A stretch of DNA of 64,000 bases from Thermus oshimai DSM 12092 (GTDB lineage: Bacteria; Deinococcota; Deinococci; Deinococcales; Thermaceae). The notes beneath the pieces are model-generated. The model had not been told where the DNA came from, did not search any database, and was given only the letters and a program-made list of their open reading frames with translations. Location: contig NZ_KB890623.1 of NCBI RefSeq assembly GCF_000373145.1, forward strand, positions 1 to 64,000, in the 5' to 3' direction. This document shows, piece by piece, positions 39,170 through 54,705 of the stretch. Numbering within the stretch: the stretch's first letter is position 1; the number at the start of each line of letters is the position of its first letter. The position numbers and the translations under genes were made by a program.

Positions 39170-40420
39170 TTAGAGGGCCCCTGCCAGGGCCAAGTAGCGC
39201 CTTCGGGCCTCCTTAAGGTCCACCACGGGGTCTTTTGGCTCATAGGAGGGGTACTCGGGGGCGAAGCGCCGGAGCCAGGCCCCTTCGGGGTCGTGCCGGC
39301 GGCCCTGCTCCACCAGGTTGAAGACCCGGAAGTAGGGGGCAGCGTCCACCCCCAGGCCCCCCGCCCACTGCCAGCCCTGGAGGTTCACCGCGGTGTCCCC
39401 GTCCAGGAGGAGGTTCTTGAAGACGCTCTCCGCCTTTTTCCAGGGCAGGAGGAGGTACTTCACCGCGAACTGGGCGGCGCACATCCGGGCCCGGTTGGAG
39501 AGGAAGCCCGTGGCCTGGAGTTCCCGCATGGCCGCGTCCACCAGGGGCACCCCGGTGCGCCCCTCGAGCCAGGCCTGGAAGAGCCCCTCGTCCTCCCGCC
39601 AGGGAAGGGCCTCAAAGCGGGGGTCCAGGGCCCTTTGGGCCATTTCGGGGAAGTGGTAGAGGAGGTGGTAGGAGAAGTCCCGCCAGAGGAGTTCGGACAC
39701 CCACTTCCTAGCCCCCTCGCCCCCGCGCCGCAGGGCCTCCCAGGCGGCCAGGCGGGGGGAGAGGACCCCGAGGGCGAAGTAGGGGGAGAGCCTCGAGCCC
39801 CCCCTCCCGTCCAGCCGGTCCCGCTCCAGGGGGTAGCGGGCCAGGCCCTCTTCCAGGAAGGCCCTGAGCCGCGCCAGGGCCGCCTCCTCCCCGGGCGGGG
39901 GCAGGGGGACGTCGCTTTTCTCCTCAGGGATCTCCCCCTCCTCGGGGAAGGGGGGGAGGGCCTCGGGGGCGGGGAGGGGAGGGTCTACCCCTTGGAAGCG
40001 GCGGCTAAAGGGGGTGTAGACCCGGTAGGGCCTTTCCAGGTCGGGGGGGATGAGGTGGGGGGCGGGGAGGAGGTGGAGGGGCACGGGCAAAGCCTCCCGC
40101 ACCCGCGTGTCCCGGTGGCGCCCGTAAGGGGTGTAGCTCTTCAGGGCGTAGACCGCCTGGGCCCTCACCGCCTTGGCCGCCTCCGGCACCCGAAGCCAGG
40201 GGGGGCCCTCCAAGACCCAGAGGGCCCCGCCCCGGGCCCGGTAGGCCGCCCTAAGGGCCCGGACGTTTTCCAAAAACCAGGCCCGCCTTCTCCTGGAGGC
40301 CCCTTCCAGGTTGTTGAGGTCCAGGACCACCAGGCCCACTATGGGGCCTTCCTTCAGGGCCTCCAGGAGGGCCGGGTGGTCGTGGAGGCGGAGGTCGCCC
40401 CGGTGCCAGACCAGGCGCAT
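39170..40420 (-). CDS. phr: Deoxyribodipyrimidine photolyase
   Basis: Light-driven flavoenzyme that splits cyclobutane pyrimidine dimers. It has 416 residues. The N-terminal antenna domain starts MRLVWHRGDLRLHDHPALLEA. The C-terminal FAD domain has GRTGVPLVDAAMRELQATGF, MCAAQFAVKYLLLPW, and GWQWAGGLGVDAAPYFRVFNLVEQGRRHDP. It lies in the light-regulated operon between crtB and the P450 gene, so DNA repair and carotenoid synthesis are induced together. Confidence 0.96.
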   Translation of the reverse strand: MRLVWHRGDLRLHDHPALLEALKEGPIVGLVVLDLNNLEGASRRRRAWFLENVRALRAAYRARGGALWVLEGPPWLRVPEAAKAVRAQAVYALKSYTPYGRHRDTRVREALPVPLHLLPAPHLIPPDLERPYRVYTPFSRRFQGVDPPLPAPEALPPFPEEGEIPEEKSDVPLPPPGEEAALARLRAFLEEGLARYPLERDRLDGRGGSRLSPYFALGVLSPRLAAWEALRRGGEGARKWVSELLWRDFSYHLLYHFPEMAQRALDPRFEALPWREDEGLFQAWLEGRTGVPLVDAAMRELQATGFLSNRARMCAAQFAVKYLLLPWKKAESVFKNLLLDGDTAVNLQGWQWAGGLGVDAAPYFRVFNLVEQGRRHDPEGAWLRRFAPEYPSYEPKDPVVDLKEARRRYLALAGAL

Positions 40421-40460
40421 GGGGGCAGGCTACCCCAAGAGGCCCTCCGACCCGTGTGGC

Positions 40461-41294
40461 CTAGGCCTCAGAGGTGCGGGCCAGGGCGAAGGCCTTGGGG
40501 AAGAGGCGGAGCCGCTCCCAGGGCTTCAGGTGGGCTCTTTGGGAGAGGTTGTCGTACCCCTGGAGGCGGAGCTTGTCCAGGATGCCCTGGTACTGGAGGG
40601 CGGCGAGGGCGACGGCCGCCCGCCCCACCCTTAACCCCTTAAGCCCGGAAAGCCCCTCCCGGTAAAGGGCCCGGGCCTTGGCCTCCAGGTGCTGGAGGAG
40701 GGCCCGGTACTGGGGGGTGACCCGCCCCCGGCGGAGGTCCGCAAGGTCCACCCCGAAGCGCTCGAGGAGCTCCCGGGGGAGGTAGACCCGGTCCATCCCC
40801 AGGTCCTCCCCCACGTCCCGGAGGATGTTGGTGAGCTGCATGGCCTGGCCCAGGCGGACCGCCTTCTCCTCCACCTCCTTCCCCCCGCCCGCGATGGGGG
40901 CCATCATCCGCCCCACCGTGCCCGCCACCCGGTAGCAGTAGAGGAGGAGCTCCTCTTCCGTTTCCAGCCGCACCGGGCCGAGGTCCGTGAGGAACCCCTC
41001 CCGCATGTGGGCGAAGGCCTCCAAGGGGATGGCCCAGCGCTCCAGGGCCCAGGCGAGGCCCCGCTCCCACGCCGCCCTTGGCCTTCCCCCATAGGCCCGC
41101 TCCACCCCCTTCCACCAGGCCTCGAGGGCCCTTTCCCCCCCGCCCCGGTCCACCGCGTCGTCCCCCAGGCGGCAGGCGGCGTAGACCGCCCAGGCCCCCT
41201 TGCGCTCCTCTTTGGGAAAGAGGAGGCTTCCCCAGTAAAAGGTGGCGGAGTGGACACGCACCACCCTGGCCAGGGCTTTCCAATCCGGTTCCAT
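40461..41294 (-). CDS. crtB: Phytoene synthase
   Basis: Condenses two geranylgeranyl diphosphates to phytoene, the first committed carotenoid step. The 277-residue protein has both Asp-rich sites: CRLGDDAVD near 42-50 and LTNILRDVGEDLGMDRVYLP near 155-174, the squalene/phytoene synthase signature. It is the first gene of a six-gene minus-strand operon. The upstream sequence holds a -10-like TAAGAT (minus strand) 24 nt from the ATG but a poor -35, as expected for an activator-dependent promoter. Confidence 0.96.
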   Translation of the reverse strand: MEPDWKALARVVRVHSATFYWGSLLFPKEERKGAWAVYAACRLGDDAVDRGGGERALEAWWKGVERAYGGRPRAAWERGLAWALERWAIPLEAFAHMREGFLTDLGPVRLETEEELLLYCYRVAGTVGRMMAPIAGGGKEVEEKAVRLGQAMQLTNILRDVGEDLGMDRVYLPRELLERFGVDLADLRRGRVTPQYRALLQHLEAKARALYREGLSGLKGLRVGRAAVALAALQYQGILDKLRLQGYDNLSQRAHLKPWERLRLFPKAFALARTSEA

Positions 41295-41295
41295 A

Positions 41296-41311
41296 ATGAA
41301 CTTAGGTTCAT
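41296..41311. promoter_or_regulatory. Palindrome just upstream of crtB, possible operator
   Basis: ATGAAC, spacer TTAG, GTTCAT is a perfect 6-bp inverted repeat two bases before the crtB start codon, next to a second CTTAG. It overlaps the expected transcription start or early leader of crtB. A protein-binding role is inferred. Confidence 0.45.
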
Positions 41312-41353
41312 CTTAGCGTGCCTCCGGGACATTTGCCCCGGCTACACTTGGTA

Positions 41354-41386
41354 GATGGACATATATTTGACAAAGCTTGTACACCC
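41354..41386 (+). promoter_or_regulatory. Three 11-bp direct repeats, putative CarH/LitR operator
   Basis: Three consecutive 11-bp units read GATGGACATAT (41354-41364), ATTTGACAAAG (41365-41375) and CTTGTACACCC (41376-41386), sharing T-x-[GT]-A-C-A at the same position. This fits the tandem 11-bp repeat (consensus T-x-T-A-C-A) that I remember for T. thermophilus CarH. The middle unit contains the -35 of litR, so binding would block polymerase. Confidence 0.75.
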
Positions 41387-41395
41387 TGTTACCCT
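41367..41395 (+). promoter_or_regulatory. Promoter of litR
   Basis: Consensus -35 TTGACA (41367-41372), a 17-nt spacer and -10 TACCCT (41390-41395). Transcription should begin at about ATG 41402, giving a leaderless message. Confidence 0.8.
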
Positions 41396-41401
41396 AAGGC
41401 C

Positions 41402-42238
41402 ATGGTCCGCTCCGGGGTGTACACCATCGCCGAGGTGGAGGCCATGACCGGCCTCTCCGCTGAGGTCCTGAGGCAGTGGGAGCGCCGCTACGGCTTCCCC
41501 CGCCCCGAGCGCACCCCTGGGGGGCACCGCCTGTACCGCGAGGAGGACGTGGAGGCCCTCAAGGCCATCCGCCGCTACCTGGAGGAGGGGGCCACCCCCC
41601 AGGCCGCCATCCGCCGCTACCTGGCCCAGGGGGTCCGGCCCCAGGGCTTAGAGGAAGACCTCCTCCAGGCCCTCCTCCAGGCCGACCTCCCCCGGGCGGA
41701 GGCCCTTTTCCGCAAGGGCCTGAGGCTTCTGGGCCCCGAAGGGGCGCTCACGGGGCTTCTCGTCCCCGTGCTCCGGGCGGTGGGGGAGGCCTGGCACCGG
41801 GGGGAGGCCAGCGTGGCCCAGGAGCACCTGGCGAGCCACTTCCTCCGGGCCCGCATGCACGAGCTATTGGACCTGGTGGGCCAGCCCAAGGGGCCCCCCA
41901 TCCTGGCCACCACCCCTCCGGGGGAGCGGCACGAGATGGGGGCCATGCTGGCCGCCTACTTCCTGCGCCGGGGGGGGTTGCCCGCCCTCTACCTGGGCCC
42001 CGACACCCCCCTTTCCGACCTCAAGCACCTGGCGGAGCGGCTTTCCGCCCGGGGGGTGGTCCTCTCCGCCCTCCTGCCGGACCCCCTTAGGGCCCTTCCC
42101 GACGGGGCCCTGAAGGGCCTGGCCCCCAAGGTGGTCCTGGGGGGGCAGGGGGCGAGCCCCGAGGAGGCGGCGCGGCTGGGGGCGGTGTACGTGGAGGATC
42201 TGGAGAGGCTGCCCGAGGTTTGGGAGGAGAGAGCATGA
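41402..42238 (+). CDS. litR: LitR/CarH, B12-dependent light-responsive MerR-family repressor
   Basis: Adenosylcobalamin photoreceptor and repressor of carotenoid genes, 278 residues. The N-terminal MerR helix-turn-helix reads [27 protein letters not shown], followed by the four-helix B12 cap. The light-sensor motif W-x9-EH is present (W followed by nine residues, then EHLASHFLR). The B12 fold follows with ERHEMG as the E-x-H-x-x-G lower-ligand loop and [12 protein letters not shown]. In the dark, the tetramer should bind the 11-bp repeats; light breaks the Co-C bond and frees DNA. The start is chosen from the leaderless promoter; 28 further upstream codons cover the promoter. Confidence 0.95.
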
Positions 42239-42822
42239 AACGCTATAGCCGCAAGGAGGCCATCTATCTCGCCGGAGACCGGGCGGACACCCTCTACCGG
42301 CTTCAGGAAGGCTTGGTGCGCATCGTGGAACTCCTGCCCGACGGCCGCACCCTCACCCTGCGCCACATCCTCCCCGGGGACTTCTTCGGGGAGGAGGCCC
42401 TGGAGGGGAAGCGCCACCGCTACGCCGCGGAGGCCATGACCGAGGCGGTGGTGGTGGGCCTGGACCCCAAGCGCATGGGCCACGAGGAGCTCCAGCTGGT
42501 GGCCCGCAACCTGGCCCGGCAGATGCGCCGCGTCCAGGCCTACGAGGCCCACCTGCAGACCGGGGAGCTTCGGGCCCGCATCGCCCGCTACCTCCTCTTC
42601 CTGGCGGACACCCCGGCCTCCTTCCGGGACGAAAGGGGCCTTTACGTCACCGCCTCCCACGAGGAGATCGCCGACGCCACCGCTTCCACCCGGGAGTCCG
42701 TGTCCAAGCTCCTTTCCGAGCTCCGCCGGGAAGGGTTTTTGGAGACCTCCTACCGCCGGGTCTACCTCCTGGACCTAAAGGCCCTCGAGGCCCTGGCGGA
42801 GGGCCAGCTGGAGGCGGCATGA
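42235..42822 (+). CDS. ldrP: CRP/FNR-family transcription activator, LdrP-like
   Basis: The 195-residue regulator has a cyclic-nucleotide-binding-like barrel: [32 protein letters not shown]. The C-terminal winged helix has [33 protein letters not shown]. The cAMP pocket Arg-Ser pair is not seen, so it may act without ligand. Length and place match T. thermophilus TTHB099/LdrP, which activates crtB. The ATG overlaps the litR stop (ATGA), so LitR indirectly controls the operon through this protein. Confidence 0.9.
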
Positions 42823-43743: not shown

Positions 43744-44607
43744 ATGCGGGTCCTGGTCATCGGCGGCACGGGGTTCCTCGGGGGGTATGTCCTTAAGGCC
43801 CTCCTGGAAAGGGGCCACACCCCCCTGGTCCTGGCCCGCCGCCCCCGCCCCCTGCCCGAAGGGGTCCGGTACCTTCCTGGGGACATCACCCGGGAGGTGC
43901 CCGACCTTAGAGGGGTGGAGGCCGTCTTCTACCTGGCGGGGATCATCCGGGAGCGGGGCCAGACCTTCCGGGAGGTGCACGTGGAGGGGGTGCGGAACAC
44001 CCTGAGGGCCATGGAGCGCTCCGGGGTGGACCGCCTGGTCCACCTCTCGGCCCTGGGGGCGAGGAGGGGCACGGGAAGCCGCTACTTTGAGACCAAGGCC
44101 GAGGCGGAAGCGCTCATCGCCCAAAGCGGCCTAAAGGCCACCCTCCTCCGCCCGAGCCTCATCTTTGGCCCGGGGGACGAGTTTTTTGGAAAGATCCTGA
44201 GGGGCCTGGTCTGCCAGCCCCTCCCCTTCGTGCCCCTCCTGGGGGATGGGGGCTTTCCCTTCCGGCCCGTCTACGCGGGGGACGTGGCGGAGGTGGCCGT
44301 GGGGGCCTTGGAAAAGGGGGTCTTTGGCCCCTTGGACCTGGTGGGGCCCAAGGAGTACACCCTTAGGGGCCTTCTGGAGCTCGTGATGGAGGCGGTGGGC
44401 CGGAAGAAGCCCTTCTTTCCCATCCCCCTTCCCCTCCTGGACCTCCTGGTTCCCCTCCTCTCCCCCCTGCCCTTCGCCCCCATCACCCTGGACCAGTACC
44501 GGATGCTCAAGCTGGGGAACACCGCCCCCTTCCCCGAGGCCCTAAAGGGCCTCCTCCCGCGCCCCACGCCCCTGGAGGAGGTCCTGCCCCGCTACCTCCG
44601 GTGCTAG
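43744..44607 (+). CDS. NAD(P)-binding protein, NDUFA9-like epimerase family
   Basis: Extended SDR of 287 residues. The Rossmann loop VIGGTGFLGGYVLKALLERGH is at 5-25; the usual catalytic Tyr-x3-Lys is represented by SRYFETKAEAEALI, which retains Y and K, and LRPSLIFGPGDEFF follows. The C-terminus resembles NDUFA9-type quinone/NAD proteins and carotenoid-linked reductases. It is the last gene of the litR operon. Substrate unknown. The last 66 bp overlap the convergent transporter gene. Confidence 0.85.
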   Translation: MRVLVIGGTGFLGGYVLKALLERGHTPLVLARRPRPLPEGVRYLPGDITREVPDLRGVEAVFYLAGIIRERGQTFREVHVEGVRNTLRAMERSGVDRLVHLSALGARRGTGSRYFETKAEAEALIAQSGLKATLLRPSLIFGPGDEFFGKILRGLVCQPLPFVPLLGDGGFPFRPVYAGDVAEVAVGALEKGVFGPLDLVGPKEYTLRGLLELVMEAVGRKKPFFPIPLPLLDLLVPLLSPLPFAPITLDQYRMLKLGNTAPFPEALKGLLPRPTPLEEVLPRYLRC

Positions 44608-45753
44608 GCGGCAAAGGGGCCTGAGCCGCATCCCTAAGGCGGTGCCCAAGAGGGCGGCAAGCCCCCAGACGTAGCCGTGGAGGCTGAAGGAGGCCACCCC
44701 GCCTAGGTAGGCCCCGATGTTGCACCCGGAGGCCAGCCGGGCCCCATAGCCCATGAGCACCCCGCCCAGGAAGACCCCGAGGAGGGTGGATAGGGGAATC
44801 CGGCGGGGGTCCTGGAAGCGGAGGTTGCCCCCCAAGGCCGCCCCCAGGAAGGCCCCCAGGAAAAGCCCGAAGTCCATGACGCTGGTGGGGTCCTGGAGGA
44901 CGCTTCCCATGAGCCTCTCCGCGAACTCCGGGGCCTGGAAGAGGGCCCAGTCCAAGACGGGGACCCCCAAGGCCTCCGCCAGCTTCCCGCCCCAGAGGGC
45001 GAAGGCCGAGGTGATGCCCCACGGCCGCCCCAAAAGGAGCAGGGTGAGGAGGCTTCCCAGGGCCAGGGCCAAGGCCCCCACCCCCAAGGACCAGGGCCCA
45101 AAGAGGGGGTGGCCCTGCCCCTGCCAGAGGGGCTCCACCCGCCCCCTGCGCGCCCGCTCCACCCGGGCCACCAGGAGGTAAAGCCCGAGGAGAAGGGCCA
45201 TCCAAAGGGCGTAGCCCAGAACCGCCCCCCAAGGCCCCCCGAACCACTCCAGGGCGCTGCCCGGGGCCAACTGGGGCAGGCCCTGCCAGTAGGGGAGGTG
45301 GAAGACCCCGAGCAGGGAGCCCACCATGAACCCGAGGAGGGTGAAAAGCCCCCGGGTGTCCCCGCTCCCCGTGTGGTAGAGGGTGCCCGAGGCGCACCCG
45401 TCCCCAAGCTGCATCCCGATTCCGAAGAGGAAGGCCCCCAGGAGGAGCCCCACCCCCAGGGGCACCACGAACCCCGAGGCCATCCCCGTGGCCAGGAAGG
45501 GGGCGAAGAGGGTGGCGGTGAGGGCGAAGAGGAGGAAGTGGGCCCGGATCAGGCGGCTTTCCCCCGTGAGGAGGAAGCGCCGGAAGCCCGAGGCGAAGCC
45601 GAAGCGGGCGTGGAAGAGGGCCAGGCCCAGCCACACCCCAAGCCAGAAGGCCAGGACCAACCTTAGGCCCCCCGCCTGGAGGACGGCCCAGGAGAGGGCC
45701 AGGGCCGAGAGGCCGAAGACCAGGAGGGGTAAGGGTTGGGGACGCCGCGCCAT
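44542..45753 (-). CDS. YeeE/YedE-family sulfur-compound transporter
   Basis: The 403-residue membrane protein has about ten TM helices and two conserved Cys motifs, GDGCASGTLYHTGSG and ARLASGCNIGAYLGGVASFSLHGY, as in YeeE (TsuA), which imports thiosulfate. The start is placed at ATG 45753 because the longer ATG 45768 lies in the promoter. It follows the molybdoenzyme operon on the same strand but has its own promoter and is preceded by a terminator. It may bring in or move reduced sulfur linked to that system (inference). Confidence 0.88.
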   Translation of the reverse strand: MARRPQPLPLLVFGLSALALSWAVLQAGGLRLVLAFWLGVWLGLALFHARFGFASGFRRFLLTGESRLIRAHFLLFALTATLFAPFLATGMASGFVVPLGVGLLLGAFLFGIGMQLGDGCASGTLYHTGSGDTRGLFTLLGFMVGSLLGVFHLPYWQGLPQLAPGSALEWFGGPWGAVLGYALWMALLLGLYLLVARVERARRGRVEPLWQGQGHPLFGPWSLGVGALALALGSLLTLLLLGRPWGITSAFALWGGKLAEALGVPVLDWALFQAPEFAERLMGSVLQDPTSVMDFGLFLGAFLGAALGGNLRFQDPRRIPLSTLLGVFLGGVLMGYGARLASGCNIGAYLGGVASFSLHGYVWGLAALLGTALGMRLRPLCRLAPEVAGQDLLQGRGAREEAL

Positions 45754-45759
45754 GGCTTC

Positions 45760-45787
45760 AATATACATATGAGCACATTAAAGTCAA
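45760..45787 (-). promoter_or_regulatory. Promoter of the YeeE-type transporter
   Basis: On the minus strand: -35 TTGACT (45782-45787), a 16-nt spacer and -10 TATATT (45760-45765). The ATG at 45753 is 6 nt from the -10, so the message is leaderless. Confidence 0.7.
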
Positions 45788-45807
45788 GGGTATGTTTCGC
45801 CCCGCAA

Positions 45808-45842
45808 AACGCGCCCCGGGGGACCCTAAGCCCCCGGGGCCT
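45808..45842 (-). terminator. Terminator of the molybdoenzyme operon
   Basis: GCCCCGGGGG (45813-45822), an 8-nt loop and CCCCCGGGGC (45831-45840) form a perfect 10-bp stem. On the minus strand it is followed by GCGTTTTGC, so it probably ends the operon before the YeeE promoter. Confidence 0.7.
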
Positions 45843-45850
45843 AAAGGGCT

Positions 45851-46411
45851 TTAGAAGGCGAAGTCCTCCACGTACCAGCGCTCGGTCTTCTTGTGCTCCT
45901 CCTTGGGGTCCATCTTTTCCGCGTGGGCCAGGAGGAGGATGAGCTTCCGGCCGGCGGCGAGGTCCACGTCGGTGGGCTCCCCGGTCTTCAGCTTCCGGCT
46001 CCACTCCACACTCCAGCGGCCCCCCTCGTGGGTGGCGGCGCTGGCCAGGATGGAGTTCTTGCCCCCCTCCTTGTCGTCGGGTACGGGCGCGCCGGTGCGC
46101 TTGGTCTGGTACATGTCCAGGGCCACCAGCTTGCCCCCTTCCAGGTAGAAGAGGTACTGGTCCGCCCCCTGCTTCTTGTTGGTCTTCTCCGAGAGGAACC
46201 CAACCCCGATCCAGCCCTTGCTCTCGCCCTCGAGGGCCAGGTAGAGGGTATCCCCCACGATGCTCCAGTAGAGGGTGATCCCCGACTTATCGTGCTTGTA
46301 ACTCTTGGCGTACTCGCCCGCGGCGATCTTGCCGTCCACCTTGGGGGCCTGCGCCAGGGCCAGGCCCAACGCCACCATCCCGAACCAGAGTAGGCCTTTG
46401 ATCTTCTCCAT
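45851..46411 (-). CDS. Secreted DOMON-domain protein, putative heme subunit of the molybdoenzyme
   Basis: The 186-residue protein starts with a Sec signal peptide (MEKIKGLLWFGMVALGLALAQA). The remainder is a DOMON-type beta sandwich: DGKIAAGEYAKSYKHDKSG, GDTLYLALEGESKGWIGVGF (the usual GWIGVGF strand), and YLFYLEGGKLVALDMYQ. DOMON domains in dehydrogenases carry heme b or a sugar; candidate Met/His/Lys ligands exist, but none can be assigned. It is the last gene of the operon, three bases from the preceding 4-TM gene. An electron-transfer role outside the membrane is inferred. Confidence 0.8.
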   Translation of the reverse strand: MEKIKGLLWFGMVALGLALAQAPKVDGKIAAGEYAKSYKHDKSGITLYWSIVGDTLYLALEGESKGWIGVGFLSEKTNKKQGADQYLFYLEGGKLVALDMYQTKRTGAPVPDDKEGGKNSILASAATHEGGRWSVEWSRKLKTGEPTDVDLAAGRKLILLLAHAEKMDPKEEHKKTERWYVEDFAF

Positions 46412-46413
46412 GC

Positions 46414-46863
46414 TTACCTCCCGTCCCGTATGGTTATCCCCACCACAAAGGCCACGGCCCCCACGTGGGTGTGGGCCAAAGCCGCCAGCACCGGCCGGCT
46501 TCCTTTAAAAGCCTCCAGGAACCCCGAGAGGCTCCAAAGGCTCACCTCCGCGTCCTGGGCGTTCCAGAGGAGGTGGTAGTAGGCCCCCAGGACCCCGGTG
46601 AGGACGCTCGCCAGCATCCAGAGGAGGAAGGGGTAGCGCACCCAGGGCCCCCGGTGGAAGAACATGAGGAAGGTCAAGGGGGCCCCCACCAGGGAGACGT
46701 AGAAGGGGATGCGGCTCTGCCAGCTCTCCGTCCAGTGGTCCAGGACCCAGTGCTCCATGCCGTAGAAGAGGAACCCCACTAGGGCGATGAGGAGGAAGGT
46801 GCTCTGCAGGAACTCCAGGAGGCGCTCCTCCTCGGTTTGGGCTTTGATGAGGGCTTCGATCAT
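46414..46863 (-). CDS. 4-TM membrane protein, second of two paralogues (putative cytochrome b-like subunit)
   Basis: The 149-residue protein has about four TM helices (near 20-38, 53-70, 77-98, 123-143). It shares with the preceding gene HWTExWQSRIPF, ASVLTGxLGAYxHLLWN and GSRPVLAALAxTH. The conserved His are 43, 97 and 133, with additional His at 38, 70 and 131. I do not recognise the family. With these His in or near TM ends, b-type heme binding is possible. It lies 12 bp downstream of its paralogue and 2 bp from the DOMON gene. Confidence 0.85.
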   Translation of the reverse strand: MIEALIKAQTEEERLLEFLQSTFLLIALVGFLFYGMEHWVLDHWTESWQSRIPFYVSLVGAPLTFLMFFHRGPWVRYPFLLWMLASVLTGVLGAYYHLLWNAQDAEVSLWSLSGFLEAFKGSRPVLAALAHTHVGAVAFVVGITIRDGR

Positions 46864-46875
46864 CCTGCACCTCCT

Positions 46876-47313
46876 TCAGCGGGCCCGGTAGATGGAGAGG
46901 AGGCCCGTGACCCCCATGTGGGTGAAGGCTAGGGCCGCCAAAACCGGCCGGCTTCCCGCCATGGCCTCCATGGCGGCTGCAAAGTCCCAGTCCACCTCCC
47001 CCTCAAAGTTCCAGAGAAGGTGGAAGTAGGCCCCCAAGGCCCCGGTGAGCACCGAGGCCCACATGGTGAGGAGGAAGGCCCAGCGCACCCAGGAGGTCTT
47101 CCGGTCAAAGAGCACCCACAGGGTGAAGATAAACCCCGGCACCGCCACGAAGAAGGGGATGCGGCTTTGCCAGGCCTCCGTCCAGTGTTCCAAAAGGAGG
47201 AGCTCCAAAGGGTACATGACCCAGCCCACCAGGCAGAGGAGGAGCATCACCGTGCGGATGAACTCCAGCGCCCACCGGGCTTGGCCTTTTGCTTCGCGCA
47301 GAGCGGGAATCAC
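46876..47313 (-). CDS. 4-TM membrane protein, first of two paralogues (putative cytochrome b-like subunit)
   Basis: The 145-residue protein has four predicted TM helices and the shared motifs LEHWTEAWQSRIPFF, WASVLTGALGAYFHLLWNF and GSRPVLAALAFTHMG. The conserved His are 43, 98 and 132. GTG 47313 is preceded by AAGGAGGTGAAG, a strong Shine-Dalgarno. It may anchor the molybdoenzyme and exchange electrons with quinone in place of an NrfD subunit; this is inference from context. A strong hairpin separates it from the catalytic gene. Confidence 0.85.
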   Translation of the reverse strand: MIPALREAKGQARWALEFIRTVMLLLCLVGWVMYPLELLLLEHWTEAWQSRIPFFVAVPGFIFTLWVLFDRKTSWVRWAFLLTMWASVLTGALGAYFHLLWNFEGEVDWDFAAAMEAMAGSRPVLAALAFTHMGVTGLLSIYRAR

Positions 47314-47368
47314 GCCTTCACCTCCTTACCCCCAAGCAAAACCTTACCATGGGTATCCTAGTAGCTTT

Positions 47369-47394
47369 GTCCCCCCGGGTGGCCCCGGGGGGAC
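47369..47394 (-). terminator. Strong intercistronic hairpin between catalytic and membrane subunits
   Basis: GTCCCCCCGGG, loop TGGC, CCCGGGGGGAC is a perfect 11-bp stem 5 nt past the molybdoenzyme stop. No U tract follows (AAAGC), so it is more likely an mRNA-stability or partial-termination element inside the operon. Confidence 0.6.
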
Positions 47395-47399
47395 TTGGG

Positions 47400-50300
47400 C
47401 TAGACAGGGATGAGGTTGACCTTGGTCTCGTAGAAGACCACGCTACCCCCCACGGTGTCCGTGAGGGCCATGTCCTTCAGGTAGGGGTCCAGGCGCATGG
47501 CGGCGTTGGCGTGGACCCCCTGGGCCCGGCGGGGGTCCCCCTTGAGGACCTGCCCGTTCACCACGATGTCTGTGGCCCCGTAGGCCCAGTGGCCCCAGCC
47601 CAGGGCGAAGGACACGCACCCCGGGCGCATCCCCTGGACCACCTTCACCTTCCCCACCATGGGCTTCTTGCCGAAAGGCCCCAGGTCCCACTCCCCTTTG
47701 GGGTTGGTGGCGGAGACCACCCTGACCTTCTGCCCGTCCTTAAGGCCCAGGCGCTGGGCGTCTTCCGCGCTCACCAGGAGGGCGTTTTCCGGCTTGATGC
47801 TGAGGAGCCAGTAGTTGCTTACGGTGCGGCTCTTGGTCTGGAGGATGTCCCGGTGGGTGAGGAGGGTGAGGCCGTAACCGGGGTCGGCGAGGGGGTTCCC
47901 CAGGACGTCCCGGTAGGGGGGGAGGTAGGTGGGCAGGGGCCCGTAGGGCTTCCCGGTCATGGCGTTCTTGGAGAGGAGCTGCTTCTCCAGGAAGAGATTC
48001 ACCTGCTTCCCGTAGCGGTTGGCCACCAGGTCGTTCTGGGCGTAGGCCTTGGCGAACTCCTGGAAGCGCCCGCCCCGGTTCAGGAGGTAGACCACCCGCC
48101 TAAAGAGCCCCTCGTCCCCCACCGCTTCCCGCCAGCGGTTCTCGTCAAAGACCGAAGGGGGGAGGTGGCGGCGGGCCTTCCGGAAGACCTGAAGCTCCCT
48201 CTCGTCCGCCTCGGGCAGGGCCTCCGAGCCGTCCGCCTTCTCCCCGAAGGCCAGGTTGGCCGCCAGCTTCAGGTAGAAGTGGTCCATGTGGGTGAAGGGC
48301 ATGCCGTTGGCGAAGCCCTTTTCCCCGAAGCCCGGAACCCCAAGCCGCTCCGCCAGGGCCAGGAGGAAGCTTTCCAGAGAGATGGGCATCCGCTGGCCGA
48401 AGACCTCCACCTCCTCGGGGATGGGGGGGATGGCGGGCTGGCGCACGGGCTGGACCTTCCAGATGATGGAGGGGTGGGAGCCGTGGAACTCCCAGCGCTC
48501 GAGGTAGGAGAGGTCGGGGATGATGTAGTCCGCGAAGAGGTAGGAGTCCCCCACCACGATGTCAAAGGCCACGATGAGGGGGATCTGGTCCGGGTCCAGC
48601 ATGGCCCGGATCTGCTCGTGCCCGCCCGGAAGGGCGTAGGCCGGGGAGCCCATGTAGTGGAAGAGAATCTTCACCGGGTAGGGGTAGCCCTGGGCCGCGG
48701 AGGGCAGGATCTCCTGGTAGACGTCCGAGGCGTGGGGGTACCAGGGGCGCTTGGCGGGGTAGCCCTGGAAGAGGGTGGTGTCCTCGTACTTCACCTCGTG
48801 GCGGATGAGGCTGATGCCGAAGGGGCTTAGGGGCTTGGGGTGGAGCTTGCTTAAGGCGAAGGGCCCGCCCGCCTTGCCCCCGGTGATGTCGTAGGTGCTG
48901 GCCTGGACGAACCCCCCCTGGTGGTCCAGGTTGCCCACGAGGACGTTCACCGCAAACCAGGCGAAGACGTTGTAGAAGCCGTTGGTGTGCTGGCTGGCCC
49001 CCCGGTGGACGTCCACCACCGCTTTCTTGCCGTACTGGGCAAACTTCTCCGCCAGGAAGCGGATGTCCTCCTCCCTCACCCCGGCGAGGGCGGCCCAGGT
49101 CTTCACCTGGTGCTTGAAGGCCTCTTCCTTTAGGAGCTGGAGGGCGCTTTTCACCGGGATCCCCTCCAGGCGGGTGTCCACGAAAAGCTCCCCGAAGGCC
49201 GCCTGGGTTTCATCGTTGGGGTTGAAGGCCAGGGGCCGCCCTTGTGCCAGGACCACGGGGGCGTCCAGCTCCACCTCCTTGTCCCCCACCTTGGCCTTGG
49301 GCTTGGGAAGGCCCAGGTCGCTGGCCCTGAGGAGCCGTTCTGGCTGGCCGTCTTTCATCTTCACCAGCCAGGCGGCGTTGCTCCAGGTGCTTTCCCCGAT
49401 GGCCTTGGCCGCGGCCTTGTTGGCGGCGGAGAGGAAGCGGCGGTCAATCTTGTCCCACTCCAGGAGGAGGCGGATGACCCCGAGGGCGATGGCCGCGTCG
49501 TGGCCCGGCTTGGGGGCGATCCAGCGGCTGGCCCCCTTGATGCCCTTCTGCCCCCTGGGGTCCACGATGGCGTACTCCAGTTCTCCCTTGGCCGCCCGTT
49601 CCGTGATCCAGCCCACCCGCAAGGGGGGCCCGTAGTTCCCCTCGAAGACGTTGGCCCCCACGAAGACCACGAAGCGGGCCTTGGAGAGGTCCGCCTGCCA
49701 GTAGAACTTGGCCCCCCCAGACCAGGAGAGCTTGCCCGAAGCGTCAAAGGTGGGCTGCTCGCTCATGGCCTTGCCGGTGAAGTACATGGAGCCCTGGCAG
49801 ACGGTGGTGTGGCCGTGGAGGTTCACGGTGCCTAGGCCCTGGCCGAAGAACCAGCGGATGAACTCGCTCCGCCCCGCCTTGAGCCGGCCCCAGGCGAAGA
49901 CCACCTGGTTGTTCTTGGGCCCCAGGTCGGGGTGGTCGGGGTGGATGAGGGTGTGGAGGTGTTCCCTGAAGTCTTCCTTGAACTTCTCCACCAGCGCCTT
50001 TTTCTTGGCGGGGTCCTTCTCCGCCCAGATGGCCTTCACCGCGTCCCCCATGGCCTTCATCACCTGGGGGTCCCGGAGGGCCCAGACCTCCTTAAGGCCG
50101 GGGTAGTGGCGTTCGTCGCCGATCTCCTTGAAAAGCTGCCCCCCCTCCACGATCTCCCGCACCGCCTGCTCAAAGGGGATCTCCACCCACTTGCCGCTGC
50201 CCCGGGGGCCGGCCCGCTTCAGGACCCGGCGGACGCGGTAGGGGTCGTAGGCGGTCTGGATGCCCGCCTGGCCCTTGGGGCAGAGGGCCCCGTCCACCTT

Positions 50301-50585
50301 GGCCAGGGTCTCTAGGTCCGTATTCAGGGGCAGGTGGGGCCGGAAGGTCCAGGGGGAGAGGGGGTTGCCGTCCATCTTGGCCGCCACGCCCTCGTAGAGC
50401 TTCACCTTGATGGGGCAGCCGGTGTTGCACTGGAGGCAGGAGGAGTAGATGGTGTTTTCGGGGAGCTGGACCTCGTAGGCCAGGCCCCCTTGGGCCGAAG
50501 CCTCCTGCAGGGCGAGCCCCAAGGGGCCAAGAAGGGCGCCCGCCCCCGAAAGCTTGAGGAGTTCACGCCGGGAAACCTTTTCCAT
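47400..50585 (-). CDS. Molybdopterin oxidoreductase catalytic subunit (TtrA-like, Tat-exported)
   Basis: DMSO-reductase-family enzyme of 1061 residues. The Tat signal is VSRRELLKLSGAGALLG (about 4-20). An N-terminal [4Fe-4S] site is C50-x2-C53-x3-C57-x44-C102. The Mo ligand is predicted as Cys263 in HTTVCQGSMYF, as in tetrathionate, arsenate and polysulfide enzymes rather than Ser (DMSO) or Asp (Nar). The C-terminal pterin-binding domain includes LVSAEDAQRLGLKDGQKVRV. Its partner ferredoxin lies directly upstream. Tetrathionate or another sulfur/arsenic oxyanion is plausible; the substrate is unproven. Confidence 0.9.
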   Translation of the reverse strand: MEKVSRRELLKLSGAGALLGPLGLALQEASAQGGLAYEVQLPENTIYSSCLQCNTGCPIKVKLYEGVAAKMDGNPLSPWTFRPHLPLNTDLETLAKVDGALCPKGQAGIQTAYDPYRVRRVLKRAGPRGSGKWVEIPFEQAVREIVEGGQLFKEIGDERHYPGLKEVWALRDPQVMKAMGDAVKAIWAEKDPAKKKALVEKFKEDFREHLHTLIHPDHPDLGPKNNQVVFAWGRLKAGRSEFIRWFFGQGLGTVNLHGHTTVCQGSMYFTGKAMSEQPTFDASGKLSWSGGAKFYWQADLSKARFVVFVGANVFEGNYGPPLRVGWITERAAKGELEYAIVDPRGQKGIKGASRWIAPKPGHDAAIALGVIRLLLEWDKIDRRFLSAANKAAAKAIGESTWSNAAWLVKMKDGQPERLLRASDLGLPKPKAKVGDKEVELDAPVVLAQGRPLAFNPNDETQAAFGELFVDTRLEGIPVKSALQLLKEEAFKHQVKTWAALAGVREEDIRFLAEKFAQYGKKAVVDVHRGASQHTNGFYNVFAWFAVNVLVGNLDHQGGFVQASTYDITGGKAGGPFALSKLHPKPLSPFGISLIRHEVKYEDTTLFQGYPAKRPWYPHASDVYQEILPSAAQGYPYPVKILFHYMGSPAYALPGGHEQIRAMLDPDQIPLIVAFDIVVGDSYLFADYIIPDLSYLERWEFHGSHPSIIWKVQPVRQPAIPPIPEEVEVFGQRMPISLESFLLALAERLGVPGFGEKGFANGMPFTHMDHFYLKLAANLAFGEKADGSEALPEADERELQVFRKARRHLPPSVFDENRWREAVGDEGLFRRVVYLLNRGGRFQEFAKAYAQNDLVANRYGKQVNLFLEKQLLSKNAMTGKPYGPLPTYLPPYRDVLGNPLADPGYGLTLLTHRDILQTKSRTVSNYWLLSIKPENALLVSAEDAQRLGLKDGQKVRVVSATNPKGEWDLGPFGKKPMVGKVKVVQGMRPGCVSFALGWGHWAYGATDIVVNGQVLKGDPRRAQGVHANAAMRLDPYLKDMALTDTVGGSVVFYETKVNLIPV

Positions 50586-50594
50586 GGCTACCTC

Positions 50595-51425
50595 CTACAC
50601 CAGGTAGTACACCCGGGGCTTGGTGCCCGCTTCCTCCTTAAGCCGGATGGCGTTGGGGGACTTGGCCAGGTGGTGGACCAAGGAGGCGGGGTCCTCCAGG
50701 TCCCCGAAGAAGGTGGCGCGCCCGATGCAGGTGGTGACGCACTGGGGAAGGAGGCCCTGGGAGATCCGGTGCAGGCAGAAGTGGCATTTGCGCACCTTGT
50801 CCATGGGGCCGGCCTCGTCCTCCCGGGCCACCTTCTTGCCCCACTCGTAGACGGGAAGGGTTTCGTAGGGCATCTCCCCCTGGCCCGGGGTCCTTTCCGT
50901 CCAGTAGGCGCCATCGTCCTTGTGGCGGGCGCCATAGGGGCAAGGGGGGATGCACTTTTCGCACCCCACGCAGAGCTCGTAGTCGATCTCCACGATGCCG
51001 TCTTCCCGCTTCCAGGTGGCGTCGTAGGGGCAGGCGGGCACGCAGGGGGGGTCGTCGCACTGCATGCAGGGACGGGGGACGAAGCGGTAGGTGACGTTGG
51101 GGTAGGTTCCCACCTCCTCCTCCGTCACCGGCCGGTAGACCACGCCCGGGGGAAGGCGGTTTTCCGCCATGCAGCTCACGGTGCAGGCGTGGCAGCCCAC
51201 GCACTTCCTGAGGTCGATCACCATGCCCCAGCGGCGCTTGGGGTTTTTAAGCGCCCGCTCCAGGTCCTCCTGCATGCGCAGGAGGACGTCCTTGTCCTCC
51301 CCCGTGGGGGGCGGGGTTTGGGGCAGGGCCTGGGCCAGGCCCGGGGCCACCATGGAGGCGAAGACGGCGCTGGCGAACTTGGAGAGGAAGCGCCGCCGTT
51401 CCTCCGGATTCAGGGGTTGTTCCAT
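50595..51425 (-). CDS. Four-cluster ferredoxin subunit of the molybdoenzyme (TtrB/PsrB-like)
   Basis: The 276-residue electron-transfer subunit has four Cys motifs: [50 protein letters not shown] and [21 protein letters not shown]. This is the DmsB/TtrB type with four [4Fe-4S] clusters. The N-terminus ([22 protein letters not shown]) looks like its own Tat signal, which fits TtrB-like proteins working on the periplasmic face. It is the first gene of the operon, 9 bp before the catalytic gene. Confidence 0.92.
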
Positions 51426-51563
51426 CGCCCACCTCCTTTCGCCTTCAGGCTAGGCTTGGGCCTAAGGGGGCGGTAGCGGGCGGTCTTTGGACGGGCTTGT
51501 CCGGGAGAAGGCGGACAGGGGCGAGGACATTTATACCCCTTAGCCTCTTCTAGGCTGGGGTTG
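51426..51563. promoter_or_regulatory. Divergent control region of the molybdoenzyme operon and its sensor operon
   Basis: This region holds TATAAAT on the minus strand (51529-51535) and TAGGCT on the plus strand (51551-51556), 7 nt before ATG 51564. Between 51489 and 51528 are four GGAC-type half-sites: GGAC 51489, GTCC 51499, GGAC 51513, GGAC 51525. One pair forms TGTCCG-N8-CGGACA (51498-51517). A further inverted repeat, TAGGC-N4-GCCTA, is at 51452-51465. No good -35 boxes are visible, consistent with activator control. Confidence 0.5.
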
Positions 51564-52400
51564 ATGCGGGGGCTTGGGGTCTTGGCGCTTCTTCTTGCGG
51601 CCTGCGCCCGCCCGCCGGAGGTGGCGCTGGCCCCGCCCTACGCCCCCGAGGCCCCCACGGGGACGGTCCGGGTGGTGGTGGCGGGGATGCGCTCCCCCAA
51701 GGAGGCCAAACCCTACCGGGCCCTCTTCCAGGGCCTGGGGGAGTGGCTCGGGGTGCGGGTGGAGGTCTTCGGCCGCCGCACTTATGGGGAGGTCCTCGAG
51801 GCCCTGCGCCAAGGCCGGGCCCATCTGGGCTTCCTCTGCACCCTGGCCGCGGGGCTCGGGGCGGAGGAGGGGGTTTTGGAGGTGCTCCTGGCCGGGGAGA
51901 CGTTCGTGCCCTACCAGAGCCTGGTGGTGGTGCGGGCCTCCTCCCCTTACCGCACCCTGGCGGATCTGAAGGGCCTCCCCTTTGCCTTCACCGACCCCCT
52001 TTCCAACACCGGCCACGCCTGGCCTAAGCTGGCCGCCCGGGGTCTCGGGGAGGGGTTCTTCGCCCAGGCCTTCTTCGCTTACCACCACGACCGGGCCCTC
52101 TTGGCCGTGCTCCAAGGCCTGGCGGAGGGGGCGGCGGTGGACCGGGTGGTGTATGAAACCCTGGGCCTCTCTGGGCTGCGGGTGGTTTGGCGGGGGCCCA
52201 CCGACCCCCCGCCCCCCATCGTGGCCCGCAAGGGGCTGGACCCTGGCCTTAAAGACCGCCTCTTAAAGGGTCTTCTCGCCTACGCCGGCACCCCGGAGGG
52301 GCAGCGGGTTTTGCGGACGCTGGGCCTTAAGGGGTTCCGGCCCGCAGAGGCTTGGGACTACGTGCGGGTGTACCGCCGGGCGGAGGAGGTGTTGCCGTGA
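51564..52400 (+). CDS. PhnD-like periplasmic binding lipoprotein, sensor component
   Basis: The 278-residue lipoprotein has the lipobox LLLAACARPP (Cys about 14). The rest matches the phosphonate/phosphite-type binding fold (PhnD): TGTVRVVVAGMRSPKEAKPYRALFQGLGEWLGVRVEVF, ALRQGRAHLGFL, VVVRASSPYRTLADLKGLPFAFTDPLSNTGHAWP. No transporter genes follow. Instead a kinase and regulator are coupled to it (GTGA), as with AioX/ArxX and the PhnD domain of TtrS. It probably binds the substrate oxyanion and signals to the kinase. Confidence 0.85.
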   Translation: MRGLGVLALLLAACARPPEVALAPPYAPEAPTGTVRVVVAGMRSPKEAKPYRALFQGLGEWLGVRVEVFGRRTYGEVLEALRQGRAHLGFLCTLAAGLGAEEGVLEVLLAGETFVPYQSLVVVRASSPYRTLADLKGLPFAFTDPLSNTGHAWPKLAARGLGEGFFAQAFFAYHHDRALLAVLQGLAEGAAVDRVVYETLGLSGLRVVWRGPTDPPPPIVARKGLDPGLKDRLLKGLLAYAGTPEGQRVLRTLGLKGFRPAEAWDYVRVYRRAEEVLP

Positions 52401-54085
52401 GGTGGGGGCTCGTCCACCAGCTCTTCGCCACCCTGCTCCTCTCGGCCCTGGTCACAGGGGGGGTGCTCATCCTGGGCGGGGCCACCTTCCTTTGGGCGGA
52501 GGGGGAGAAGGCCCTTTGGCAGCGGGCTCGAGGCGCGGCCCAAGACCTGGCCGCCCTCCTTGCGGACGACCTCCTCCTGGGGGACCGCTTTTCCGCCTGG
52601 GAGCGGCTCCGCGCCGCCCAGGCCCGCGATCCAGACCTGGCCTACGCCTACGTGCTGGACCCGGAGGGCTGGGTCCTGGTGCACACCCTGGAGGGGGGGG
52701 TGCCCGAGGCCCTTCGGGCCCTGGGGGGGGAGAGGACGCTGAGCCTAGAGGGCCAGACCGTCTACCAGACCGAGGCGGAGATCTTTGGGGGGCAGATCGG
52801 TCGGCTCCGCCTGGGGTTCTACCAGGCCCCTCTCTGGGCGGAGGTGGGCCAGGTGGCGCGCACAGGGCTTTTCGGTCTTCTCTGGGCCGTGGGCCTGGGG
52901 GGCGGGCTCGGGTACTTCCTCCTTCTCAGGCACCTGGAGCCTCTGAGGGCCATGACCGAACGGGTGGCCCGGGTGGGCCAGGGGGAGGCCCCGGTCTTCC
53001 CCGAGCCCAAGAACGAGCTTGGGCTTTTGGGCCGGGCCCTGAACGAGATGGGCCAGGCGGTGGCCCAGCAAAGGCGCCAGCTCCTCCTCCTAAACCGCCT
53101 CCTGGCCGAGGCCCACGCCCTAAGGCTGGAGGAGCTGGCCGAGCGGGTCCTTTCCCTCCTCACGCGGGAGCTGGGCTTTTTGTGCGGGGACCTCTGGGTG
53201 GAGGGCCGGGTGGTCCACTGCCGGGCCTGCCAGCGCCTCTGCCCCCTGGGGGCGGTGGGCCCCCTGGCCGAGGAGGCCCTCCGCCGGGGCCAGGTGGTGG
53301 TGGCCCCCGGGGGGGTGGCGGTGCCGGTGCCGCCCAGGGGGGCCCTGGTCCTCCACGGCGCCCCCCAGGTGGAGGAGGCCTGGCTGAGGGAGTTTCTGGG
53401 GGCCCTTTCCCTGCCCCTGGCCTCGGCTCTGGAAAACGCCCGGCTCTACGGCCTCCTGGAGGAAAAGGAGCGCCAGCGGGCCCGGCTCATGAGCGCCTGG
53501 CTGGCCGCCCAGGAGGAGGAGCGGGGGCGGCTGGCCCGGGAGCTCCACGACGAGATCGGCCAGGCCCTCACCGGCCTCCTTCTGGGGTTGGAAAGCCTTC
53601 CCGGGTCCGAGCCCCTAAAGGAGCTGGTCCGGCGCACCCTGGCCGAGGTGCGCCGCCTGGCCTGGGACCTAAGGCCAAGCGTCCTGGACCACCTGGGCCT
53701 CAAGGCGGCCCTGGAGCGCTACGTGCGGGAGTTTTCCGAGCGCACGGGGATCCGGGTGGACCTTTCCTTCCACCTCCTCCACCCCCTGCCCCGGGAGTGG
53801 GAGACCGTCATCTACCGGGTGGTCCAGGAGGCCCTGACCAACGTGGCCCGGCACGCGGAGAGCCCCTGGGCGGCGGTGGGGGTTTTGGAGGCGGAGGGGG
53901 AGGTGCGGGTCTTCGTGGAGGATGGGGGCCGGGGCTTCGTGCCCGAGGCGGTGGAGGCGGGCCGGCAGGGGCTTTTGGGCATGCGGGAGCGGGTGGAGCT
54001 GGTGGGGGGCCGGTTCCTGCTGGAAAGCGCCCCCGGCCGGGGCACCTGGATCCAGATCCGCCTGCCCCTGGAGGTGAAGGCGTGA
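52397..54085 (+). CDS. Sensor histidine kinase, NarX/NreB type with four-Cys cluster
   Basis: The 562-residue kinase has TM1 (about 8-28), a periplasmic part to about 155, TM2 (near 158-180), then HAMP and a GAF-like region. Within it are Cys263, Cys275, Cys278 and Cys282 (CRACQRLC), a possible Fe-S or redox site. The HisKA_3 motif RLARELHDEIGQALTGLL has His384, and the ATPase domain has VVQEALTNVARHA and GLLGMRERVELVGG. GTG 52397 overlaps the lipoprotein gene. It should phosphorylate the next gene's regulator in response to the PhnD-like protein, redox, or both. Confidence 0.9.
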   Translation: MRWGLVHQLFATLLLSALVTGGVLILGGATFLWAEGEKALWQRARGAAQDLAALLADDLLLGDRFSAWERLRAAQARDPDLAYAYVLDPEGWVLVHTLEGGVPEALRALGGERTLSLEGQTVYQTEAEIFGGQIGRLRLGFYQAPLWAEVGQVARTGLFGLLWAVGLGGGLGYFLLLRHLEPLRAMTERVARVGQGEAPVFPEPKNELGLLGRALNEMGQAVAQQRRQLLLLNRLLAEAHALRLEELAERVLSLLTRELGFLCGDLWVEGRVVHCRACQRLCPLGAVGPLAEEALRRGQVVVAPGGVAVPVPPRGALVLHGAPQVEEAWLREFLGALSLPLASALENARLYGLLEEKERQRARLMSAWLAAQEEERGRLARELHDEIGQALTGLLLGLESLPGSEPLKELVRRTLAEVRRLAWDLRPSVLDHLGLKAALERYVREFSERTGIRVDLSFHLLHPLPREWETVIYRVVQEALTNVARHAESPWAAVGVLEAEGEVRVFVEDGGRGFVPEAVEAGRQGLLGMRERVELVGGRFLLESAPGRGTWIQIRLPLEVKA

Positions 54086-54705
54086 TCCGGGTGGTGCTGG
54101 TGGAGGACCACGCCCTGGTGCGCACGGGGCTTAAGCACCTCCTGGAGGCCCGGGGGGTGAGGGTGGTGGGGGAGGCGGGGAGCGGCCTCGAGGCCCTGGG
54201 CCTTCTGGAGGGCCTGGAGGCCGACGTGGCCATCCTGGACGTTGCCCTGCCGGACATGAACGGGATAGAGCTGGCCCAGCGCCTAAGGGCCCGTTTCCCC
54301 CACCTCAGGCTTCTCGCCCTTTCCATGCACGAGGACCTGGAGTACGTGCGGGGCTTCCTCCAGGCGGGGGGGCAGGGGTACGTGAGCAAGGGGGCGGTGG
54401 ACCACGAGCTTCTGGATGCCCTCCTCACCGTGGCCCGGGGGGGGCGCTACCTCAACCCCGCCCTGGCCATGCGCCTGGCGGTGGAGCTGGTCCAGAAGGA
54501 GGGGGAGGAGGCCCCCCTCTCCCCCCGGGAGGAGGAGGTCCTCCGCCTTTTGGCCCAGGGCCTTTCCCACAAGGAGGTGGCCGAACGCCTGGGGATTTCC
54601 GAAAAGACCGTGGCCACCTACCGGGAGCGGGGCATGGAGAAGCTGGGCCTGAAAAGCCGGGGCGAGCTCCTCCGCTACGCCGCCCGCAAGGGCTGGCTCG
54701 GCTAA
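54082..54705 (+). CDS. NarL/FixJ-family response regulator
   Basis: The 207-residue regulator has the receiver motif VAILDVALPDMNG with Asp53, Lys in YVSKGAVDHE, and the LuxR-type helix-turn-helix LSPREEEVLRLLAQGLSHKEVAERLGISEKTVATY. GTG 54082 overlaps the kinase stop (GTGA). The obvious target is the molybdoenzyme promoter, where GGAC half-sites occur. Confidence 0.94.
   Translation: MIRVVLVEDHALVRTGLKHLLEARGVRVVGEAGSGLEALGLLEGLEADVAILDVALPDMNGIELAQRLRARFPHLRLLALSMHEDLEYVRGFLQAGGQGYVSKGAVDHELLDALLTVARGGRYLNPALAMRLAVELVQKEGEEAPLSPREEEVLRLLAQGLSHKEVAERLGISEKTVATYRERGMEKLGLKSRGELLRYAARKGWLG

Follow-up and report, generated by a model that had tools for sequence, protein, structure and literature searches.

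An Anchor-Less Molybdoenzyme of the Tetrathionate Reductase Clade with an ArrX-Type Sensor in Thermus oshimai: A Candidate Arsenate Reductase

Gene Content of the Locus

The stretch of DNA analyzed here (the window) comprises 64 kb of Thermus oshimai DSM 12092 (genome G000; 2.26 Mb, 24 contigs) and encodes a molybdoenzyme of the tetrathionate reductase (Ttr) clade that lacks an NrfD membrane anchor and is accompanied by its own sensory genes. Nine open reading frames (ORFs) make up the locus. On the minus strand, the order of transcription is an iron–sulfur (FeS) subunit, a molybdenum (Mo) subunit, two proteins with four transmembrane helices (4-TM proteins; TM4a and TM4b), a DOMON protein and a YeeE transporter. 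The three sensory genes X, S and R run divergently from the FeS–Mo operon on the plus strand. The original prediction, made from the letters of the window, had described these same nine ORFs, and all were found at the positions and with the family content it gave.

The catalytic subunit (47400-50585, minus strand; 1061 aa) is a Mo-bis(molybdopterin guanine dinucleotide) protein of the Ttr/Srd/alternative-Arr clade. It combines an N-terminus resembling a twin-arginine translocation (Tat) signal, from which export is predicted, with ligands for an FS0 cluster (Cys 50/53/57/102) and a Mo-ligand Cys263, all aligned with TtrA and PsrA. A Cys Mo ligand together with an N-terminal FS0 cluster agrees with membership of the Ttr clade. 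The FeS subunit (50595-51425, minus strand; 276 aa) is a four-cluster ferredoxin of the TtrB/PsrB type with exactly 16 Cys, as needed for four clusters. FeS subunits of the window's own clade (clade A, see below) carry a Tat-like RRxFL motif at the N-terminus, and export is predicted at the level of this motif.

Family Placement of the Mo and FeS Subunits

The best NCBIfam profiles for the two subunits are TtrA (NF011567) and TtrB. The Mo subunit scores 397 bits against TtrA, far under the equivalog cut-off of 1750, and shares 27% identity with an enterobacterial TtrA. It also fails the ArrA equivalog cut-off (NF041714; 68.6 vs. 1600 bits). Two forms of the Mo subunit exist in Thermus. Type A, to which the window belongs, is 85-88% identical to the window protein and has no NrfD, while type B (69-71%) has the gene order FeS-NrfD-Mo-protoglobin (L042-L047). 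Both occur together in two genomes (G001 and G002). Meiothermus-group genomes carry a type C (L153-L158) with ~66% identity to the window Mo subunit, and a further family, f4, shows 46-47% identity; both have an NrfD. The FeS-NrfD-Mo order is also found in distant plasmid relatives from Halomicrobium, Azospirillum, Pseudomonas and Citrobacter (Ttr). In the relative from Citrobacter arsenatis, the middle gene of this set is annotated merely as hypothetical.

A tree of 31 rows, including types A, B, C and F4, was constructed; it contains neither ArrA nor SrdA and has long outgroup branches. Type A forms one clade (100/100) with type B as its nearest relative (89/88) and type C next, and A, B and C together are supported at 100/100. 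The window enzyme thus groups with enzymes of the B-C-A gene order. Two observations concern the type B neighborhoods. The protoglobin that follows the enzyme (PF11563 in L042, 7530-8081; same place in L043-L047) is perhaps a sensor of, or protector against, O2 or NO, and a DnaB helicase interrupted by an intein-like sequence adjoins the type B locus of G001 (L045, 12367-14985).

Loss of the NrfD Anchor

No NrfD lies between or next to the genes of the locus. The gene order is B-A rather than B-C-A, and a genome-wide search returned no TtrC-type NrfD anywhere in the genome. PF03916 has a single genome-wide match, which is ActC of alternative complex III as judged by its neighborhood, and the single match of PF14589 is PsrC of a separate, complete psrABC operon. 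The absence of NrfD that the original prediction had asserted for the locus is confirmed; genome-wide, these searches give ActC and PsrC alone. A hidden NrfD elsewhere was rejected as well, as these two are the only candidates and PsrC is missing from two enzyme-bearing genomes (G005 and G012). When the type B NrfD was searched against 111 Deinococcota genomes, strong matches were confined to genomes with type B, C or f4 enzymes and to G099. In the same set, none of the genomes holding type A alone contains a TtrC-type NrfD. Because the type A clade nests among FeS-NrfD-Mo relatives and its sole carriers have no TtrC-type NrfD, we conclude that type A lost the anchor at its base.

The ferredoxin may bear a trace of this event. 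On the stem of clade A, its branch is unusually long (0.97, vs. 0.27 for the Mo subunit), with changes from CIGCRYC to CVGCEKC, from CPYxARTxDFG to RHKDD/EG and from SPVGNARKC to GPxDKVRKC. These changes hit sites that are fixed in NrfD-bearing forms, and every cluster ligand is retained. They can be read as a remodeling of the ferredoxin after its NrfD partner was lost. Cluster loss as the sign of a new electron path was considered too and discarded, as all 16 Cys are retained. Anchor-less enzymes have a precedent in some Arr enzymes without an anchor subunit (PMC2500031).

An ArrX-Type Sensor Accompanies the Enzyme

The three divergent genes encode a PhnD-like lipoprotein predicted to be a periplasmic arsenic-oxyanion-binding protein of the ArrX/AioX type (X; 51564-52400, plus strand), a histidine kinase with HAMP, HisKA_3 and HATPase domains (S; 52397-54085, plus strand) and a NarL/LuxR-type response regulator without an AAA+ domain (R; 54082-54705, plus strand). 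The GTG start of S overlaps the stop codon of X. Against the PDB, the best match of X is ArrX (6x6b; 5.6e-28, 101 bits), followed by AioX (59-64 bits) and PhnD (55 bits). The pocket of AioX consists of Tyr88, Cys106, Tyr131, Ser161, Ser163, His192 and Asp210, and PhnD lacks Cys106 (PMC5908839). The corresponding residues of X are Y74, C92, Y117, S147, T149, H175 and D193 (with the ATG at 51564 as residue 1), so that six of the seven are identical, the Cys included, and Ser163 is replaced by Thr. Of 18 X proteins from types A, B, f4 and G099, 17 retain the pocket Cys, and the one without it (G026) is degenerate. As for the regulator, ArrR has been described in the literature as a LuxR-type protein without AAA+, unlike AioR and ArxR, and R of the window agrees with ArrR.

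Genomes with close X homologues (E < 1e-35) always have the enzyme family as well, and three of them lack AioA (G025, G037 and G099). This distribution bears out the earlier assignment of the PhnD-kinase-regulator set to the enzyme. It also speaks against a sensor that serves arsenite oxidase, as X tracks the molybdoenzyme and not AioA; aioXSR has been reported from Proteobacteria only (PMC3834237). The cytoplasmic part of the kinase further contains a Cys-rich HCRACQRLC stretch (Cys275, 278 and 282) that may act as an additional redox or thiol sensor. In G007 (L034), the kinase is split by a frameshift or a sequencing error.

Arsenic Context of the Enzyme Family

AioA above cut-off was found in 13 of 27 Thermus genomes. 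All 13 are within the 15 that carry the enzyme family, while none of the 12 genomes without the family has it (hypergeometric P ~5e-6, uncorrected for phylogeny). Phylum-wide, the co-occurrence amounts to 23/29 (1.7e-14, likewise uncorrected). Where AioA and the enzyme share a contig, the distance between them is 9-36 kb in six Thermus genomes and 19 kb in G071. The arsenic islands in which type C enzymes of Meiothermus reside also contain ArsR, ArsC, ArsP, an ArsK-like transporter and, at a distance of ~3-7 kb, aioBA. In addition, the distant relative of Citrobacter arsenatis (33%) lies inside a plasmid ars cluster. ArrA above cut-off is present in none of the 27 Thermus genomes. A near-complete ArrA-like protein does occur in a Trueperaceae genome (G085:C304:3059-5626), with 1048 bits, under the cut-off of 1600.

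Taken together, the sensor pocket, the co-occurrence with AioA and the relatives in arsenic islands suggest that the substrate is an arsenic oxyanion. The original prediction had preferred a sulfur oxyanion and had left arsenic as an alternative that was not excluded. The pocket of X, its match to ArrX and the AioA co-occurrence now favor that alternative.

The 4-TM/4-TM/DOMON Trio as a Separate Module

Downstream of the enzyme genes lie TM4a (46876-47313, minus strand; 145 aa), TM4b (46414-46863, minus strand; 149 aa) and a secreted DOMON protein (45851-46411, minus strand; 186 aa), referred to as the trio. TM4a and TM4b are paralogues with ~50% identity. An AlphaFold model of the 4-TM protein shows four long helices (predicted local distance difference test, pLDDT, 92.9). 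H38, H43, H97 and H131 are invariant among TM4b proteins, and invariant His residues are present in both 4-TM families. The DOMON protein matches PF03351 (61.7 bits over a cut-off of 32.7; 1e-16). In a Foldseek search, its model (pLDDT 75.5) matched 2ivf_C (2.2e-5) and 7b04_O (2.4e-4), in line with a fold that resembles the heme-b gamma subunits EbdC and NxrC and the cytochrome of cellobiose dehydrogenase (CDH). Its invariant H40, M167 and H173 (window numbering) are candidate heme b ligands.

We found no basis for regarding the trio as an NrfD homologue. The hhalign probability of the 4-TM profile against the NrfD profile is 0.1%, a Foldseek search against the PDB gave no match under E 0.001 with NrfD absent among the matches listed, and a Pfam scan of 19 members yielded noise only. 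In profile and fold searches, the 4-TM proteins thus resemble neither NrfD nor known heme proteins.

The trio occurs in ~31 of the 111 Deinococcota genomes (32 have matches, of which G030 is a weak, single-gene one). A scan over 84,980 bacterial and archaeal species located it only in Thermaceae and Trueperaceae. Seven Thermus genomes (G004, G006, G008, G013, G019, G023 and G024) possess the trio without the type A enzyme, as do one Meiothermus genome and many Trueperaceae genomes, and in Trueperaceae it forms a lone three-gene operon. At locus L092 of Thermus sp. 2.9, leftovers of the kinase and regulator genes accompany the trio, and a scrap before the hairpin is readable as YLKD, the C-terminus of the enzyme; they show that the trio stayed behind when the enzyme cassette was deleted. 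Linkage is broken in another genus as well. In genus g5 (G071; L149 vs. L093), contig C35 holds the type A cassette, followed by a DUF4397 gene, and the trio is on C38. In the fragmented assembly G020, the trio is on a different contig from the enzyme.

The gap between enzyme and trio (47314-47403, minus strand) contains a GC hairpin, then a promoter-like block and the ribosome-binding site of TM4a. The strong hairpin directly follows the stop codon of the enzyme and precedes the block in 9/9 occupied sites examined. It has no T-run and is thus a putative terminator. The block, GGGACA...CTCCC...ATACCTGTGnTA, and the ribosome-binding site are found upstream of TM4a at occupied and empty sites alike. 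Since it is kept without the enzyme, is unlinked in G071, has its own upstream block and is set apart by the hairpin, the trio is an autonomous, older Deinococcota module in its own unit, separable from the enzyme. The original prediction had the 4-TM pair and DOMON protein replace NrfD. A dedicated replacement of this kind is not supported: seven Thermus genomes keep the trio alone, genus g5 has it apart from the enzyme, it has its own upstream block, and it lacks similarity to NrfD. The trio may still feed this enzyme, since all 12 anchor-less genomes have it.

Several features of the trio neighborhoods deserve mention. The trio loci (L086-L106) represent a Deinococcota-only operon whose membrane proteins have no Pfam family. 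In the window, a cluster reminiscent of a light response lies beside it (39170-42822), with a photolyase, a phytoene synthase and MerR/B12-binding (LitR-type) and CRP-type regulators; the block upstream of TM4a could be the target of this CRP-type regulator. T. igniterrae (G013) has a bacteriorhodopsin-like gene (PF01036) near the trio (L086, 13061-13843). In some Trueperaceae (L097, L099 and L108), the trio was seen by eye to be located between a gene for a Fur-like regulator and small DUF2249- and YwiC-like genes.

The YeeE/YedE transporter (Sulf_transp; 44542-45768, minus strand) is a separate unit with its own consensus promoter (TTGACT-16-TATATT at 45787-45760), which predicts a leaderless start at the ATG at 45753. 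YeeE follows the trio in most trio-only Thermus genomes and is missing beside it in T. brockianus. YeeE, whose proximity had suggested a sulfur oxyanion, is rejected as a sulfur marker: it goes with the trio locus whether the enzyme is there or not, and its promoter is separate.

Proposed Function and Alternative Explanations

The clade holds reductases of tetrathionate, selenate and, probably, arsenate in Pyrobaculum (PMC10100899, PMC7331816, PMC9751042). The Thermus isolate HR13, reported in 2001, respires arsenate with an enzyme that has not been assigned, and the genome paper of T. scotoductus found no other proteins for arsenate respiration (PMC3235269). Arsenate reduction is the most economical direction, because the clade members are reductases, HR13 respires arsenate and no ArrA above cut-off is present in the 27 Thermus genomes. 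Overall, we consider it fairly probable that the locus encodes an inducible respiratory arsenate reductase of the Ttr clade that has an ArrXSR-type sensor, has lost its NrfD and is supplied with electrons by a donor that separate genes encode. Lipoprotein X would bind arsenate or a different arsenic oxyanion, upon which kinase S and the NarL-type regulator R would switch on the FeS–Mo operon. Both subunits would be exported by Tat. Electrons would come from the separate donor, as the anchor is lost, and reach the Mo site by way of the four FeS clusters and FS0; the trio is one possible donor. An analogy is offered by Shewanella ArrAB, which has no ArrC and depends on CymA.

A number of points weigh against an arsenate reductase. 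By profile, the closest characterized namesake is TtrA, a tetrathionate enzyme, and not ArrA. No ars genes adjoin the clade A loci in Thermus, and G025 and G037 carry the enzyme without AioA. The AioA co-occurrence, uncorrected for phylogeny, could reflect arsenite oxidation instead, and the AioX pocket residues alone cannot separate arsenate from arsenite (PMC5908839). X has degenerated in two clade A loci, that of G015 and that of G002, with the kinase and regulator ORFs still open (L036, ~12546-12770; L038, ~12571-12702). Finally, substrate, direction and donor are deduced, in contrast to the gene content, the absence of NrfD, the nesting of clade A, the sensor pocket, the co-occurrence with arsenite oxidase and the independence of the trio, which were observed directly.

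One competing account, compatible with arsenate and not exclusive of the reductase reading, casts the trio as the quinol-oxidizing donor of the enzyme, a standalone CymA-like conduit that permitted the loss of NrfD. The trio is present in 12/12 anchor-less genomes (adjacent in Thermus, on another contig in G020, unlinked in G071) vs. 2/15 genomes in which every enzyme has an NrfD. Two four-helix bundles make up NrfD (PMC8076601), the model of the DOMON protein is similar to the molybdoenzyme gamma subunits EbdC and NxrC, both 4-TM families have invariant His residues and the ferredoxin was reshaped on the clade A stem. However, within Thermus the contrast shrinks to 11/11 vs. 2/4 and is confounded by ancestry. 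Enzyme-free trios in seven Thermus genomes, one Meiothermus genome and many genomes of Trueperaceae, where they form isolated operons, retention after the cassette deletion in L092, the separate promoter-like block beyond the hairpin and the lack of profile or fold likeness to NrfD or heme proteins also speak against it. We therefore regard the trio as donor as a tentative option only. All data would agree with a general, non-dedicated conduit that the enzyme uses, and equally with mere shared ancestry. The bolder version, in which the trio is an undescribed standalone Deinococcota quinol-to-periplasm conduit (a CymA analogue without c-type hemes) with the Thermus arsenate reductase as its client, seems to us rather doubtful. 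If true, this clientship would explain why an arsenate reductase could lose NrfD.

Other explanations change the substrate, the direction or the anchor. An ordinary Ttr function, the reduction of tetrathionate or another sulfur oxyanion, would agree with TtrA (397 bits) and TtrB as best profiles, with the Ttr-clade gene features, with the nearby YeeE and with TtrSR, which employs a related sensing logic. Yet the score is far under the TtrA cut-off, identity to the enterobacterial protein is only 27%, YeeE tracks the trio and X resembles ArrX and AioX, with the arsenic-binding Cys, in a family that co-occurs with AioA; a sulfur substrate is therefore unlikely. The enzyme might also run in the oxidizing direction and pass electrons from arsenite (or antimonite or thioarsenite) to a periplasmic cytochrome without NrfD, since loss of NrfD cuts the quinol link, arsenite oxidase co-occurs and the X pocket suits arsenite too (PMC5908839). 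Aio is already in these genomes, though, the regulator is ArrR-like rather than AioR-like and the known clade members are reductases, which makes oxidation unlikely. Finally, the enzyme could borrow another NrfD of the cell, as ActC and PsrC are both encoded in this genome. With PsrC absent from the enzyme-bearing G005 and G012, and ActC being part of alternative complex III, borrowing seems improbable.

In our judgement, the window enzyme is the best current candidate for the Thermus arsenate reductase, and the arsenate respiration reported for Thermus may depend on it. The candidate is specific, ready for a knock-out and equipped with an arsenic-type sensor of its own, and screens based on ArrA are not expected to catch enzymes of this kind. 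Types A and B, without and with NrfD in one genus, form a natural before/after pair that allows asking how a complex iron-sulfur molybdoenzyme manages without a quinone-binding membrane subunit. No Thermus TtrA-like enzyme tied to arsenate was found in the papers examined, with subscription journals outside the search, and priority is not certain.

Comparison with Known Systems

Like TtrBCA, SrdBCA and the archaeal alternative arsenate reductases, the window enzyme has a Cys-ligated Mo subunit with predicted Tat export, a Tat signal on the FeS subunit and a four-cluster FeS gene upstream of the Mo gene. Unlike them, it has no NrfD (C) gene, scores far under the TtrA cut-off and has a separate ArrX-type sensor gene, whereas the sensor domain is fused in TtrS. 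Type B of Thermus (69-71%) shares the divergent X-S-R set but keeps FeS-NrfD-Mo followed by a protoglobin. Type C of Meiothermus (~66%) also keeps FeS-NrfD-Mo and sits in ars/aio islands. With ArrAB(C) and ArrXSR, the locus has in common the ArrX-like lipoprotein, the kinase, the LuxR-type regulator and the proposed substrate, and some Arr enzymes likewise do without an anchor. The catalytic subunit is nonetheless not ArrA (68.6 bits vs. 1600) and belongs to another clade with another gene order. Lastly, the secreted protein of the trio shares the DOMON fold with the heme-b gamma subunits EbdC and NxrC and with CYBDOM proteins, but its partners in the trio are two 4-TM proteins outside known families, whether or not a molybdoenzyme is adjacent.

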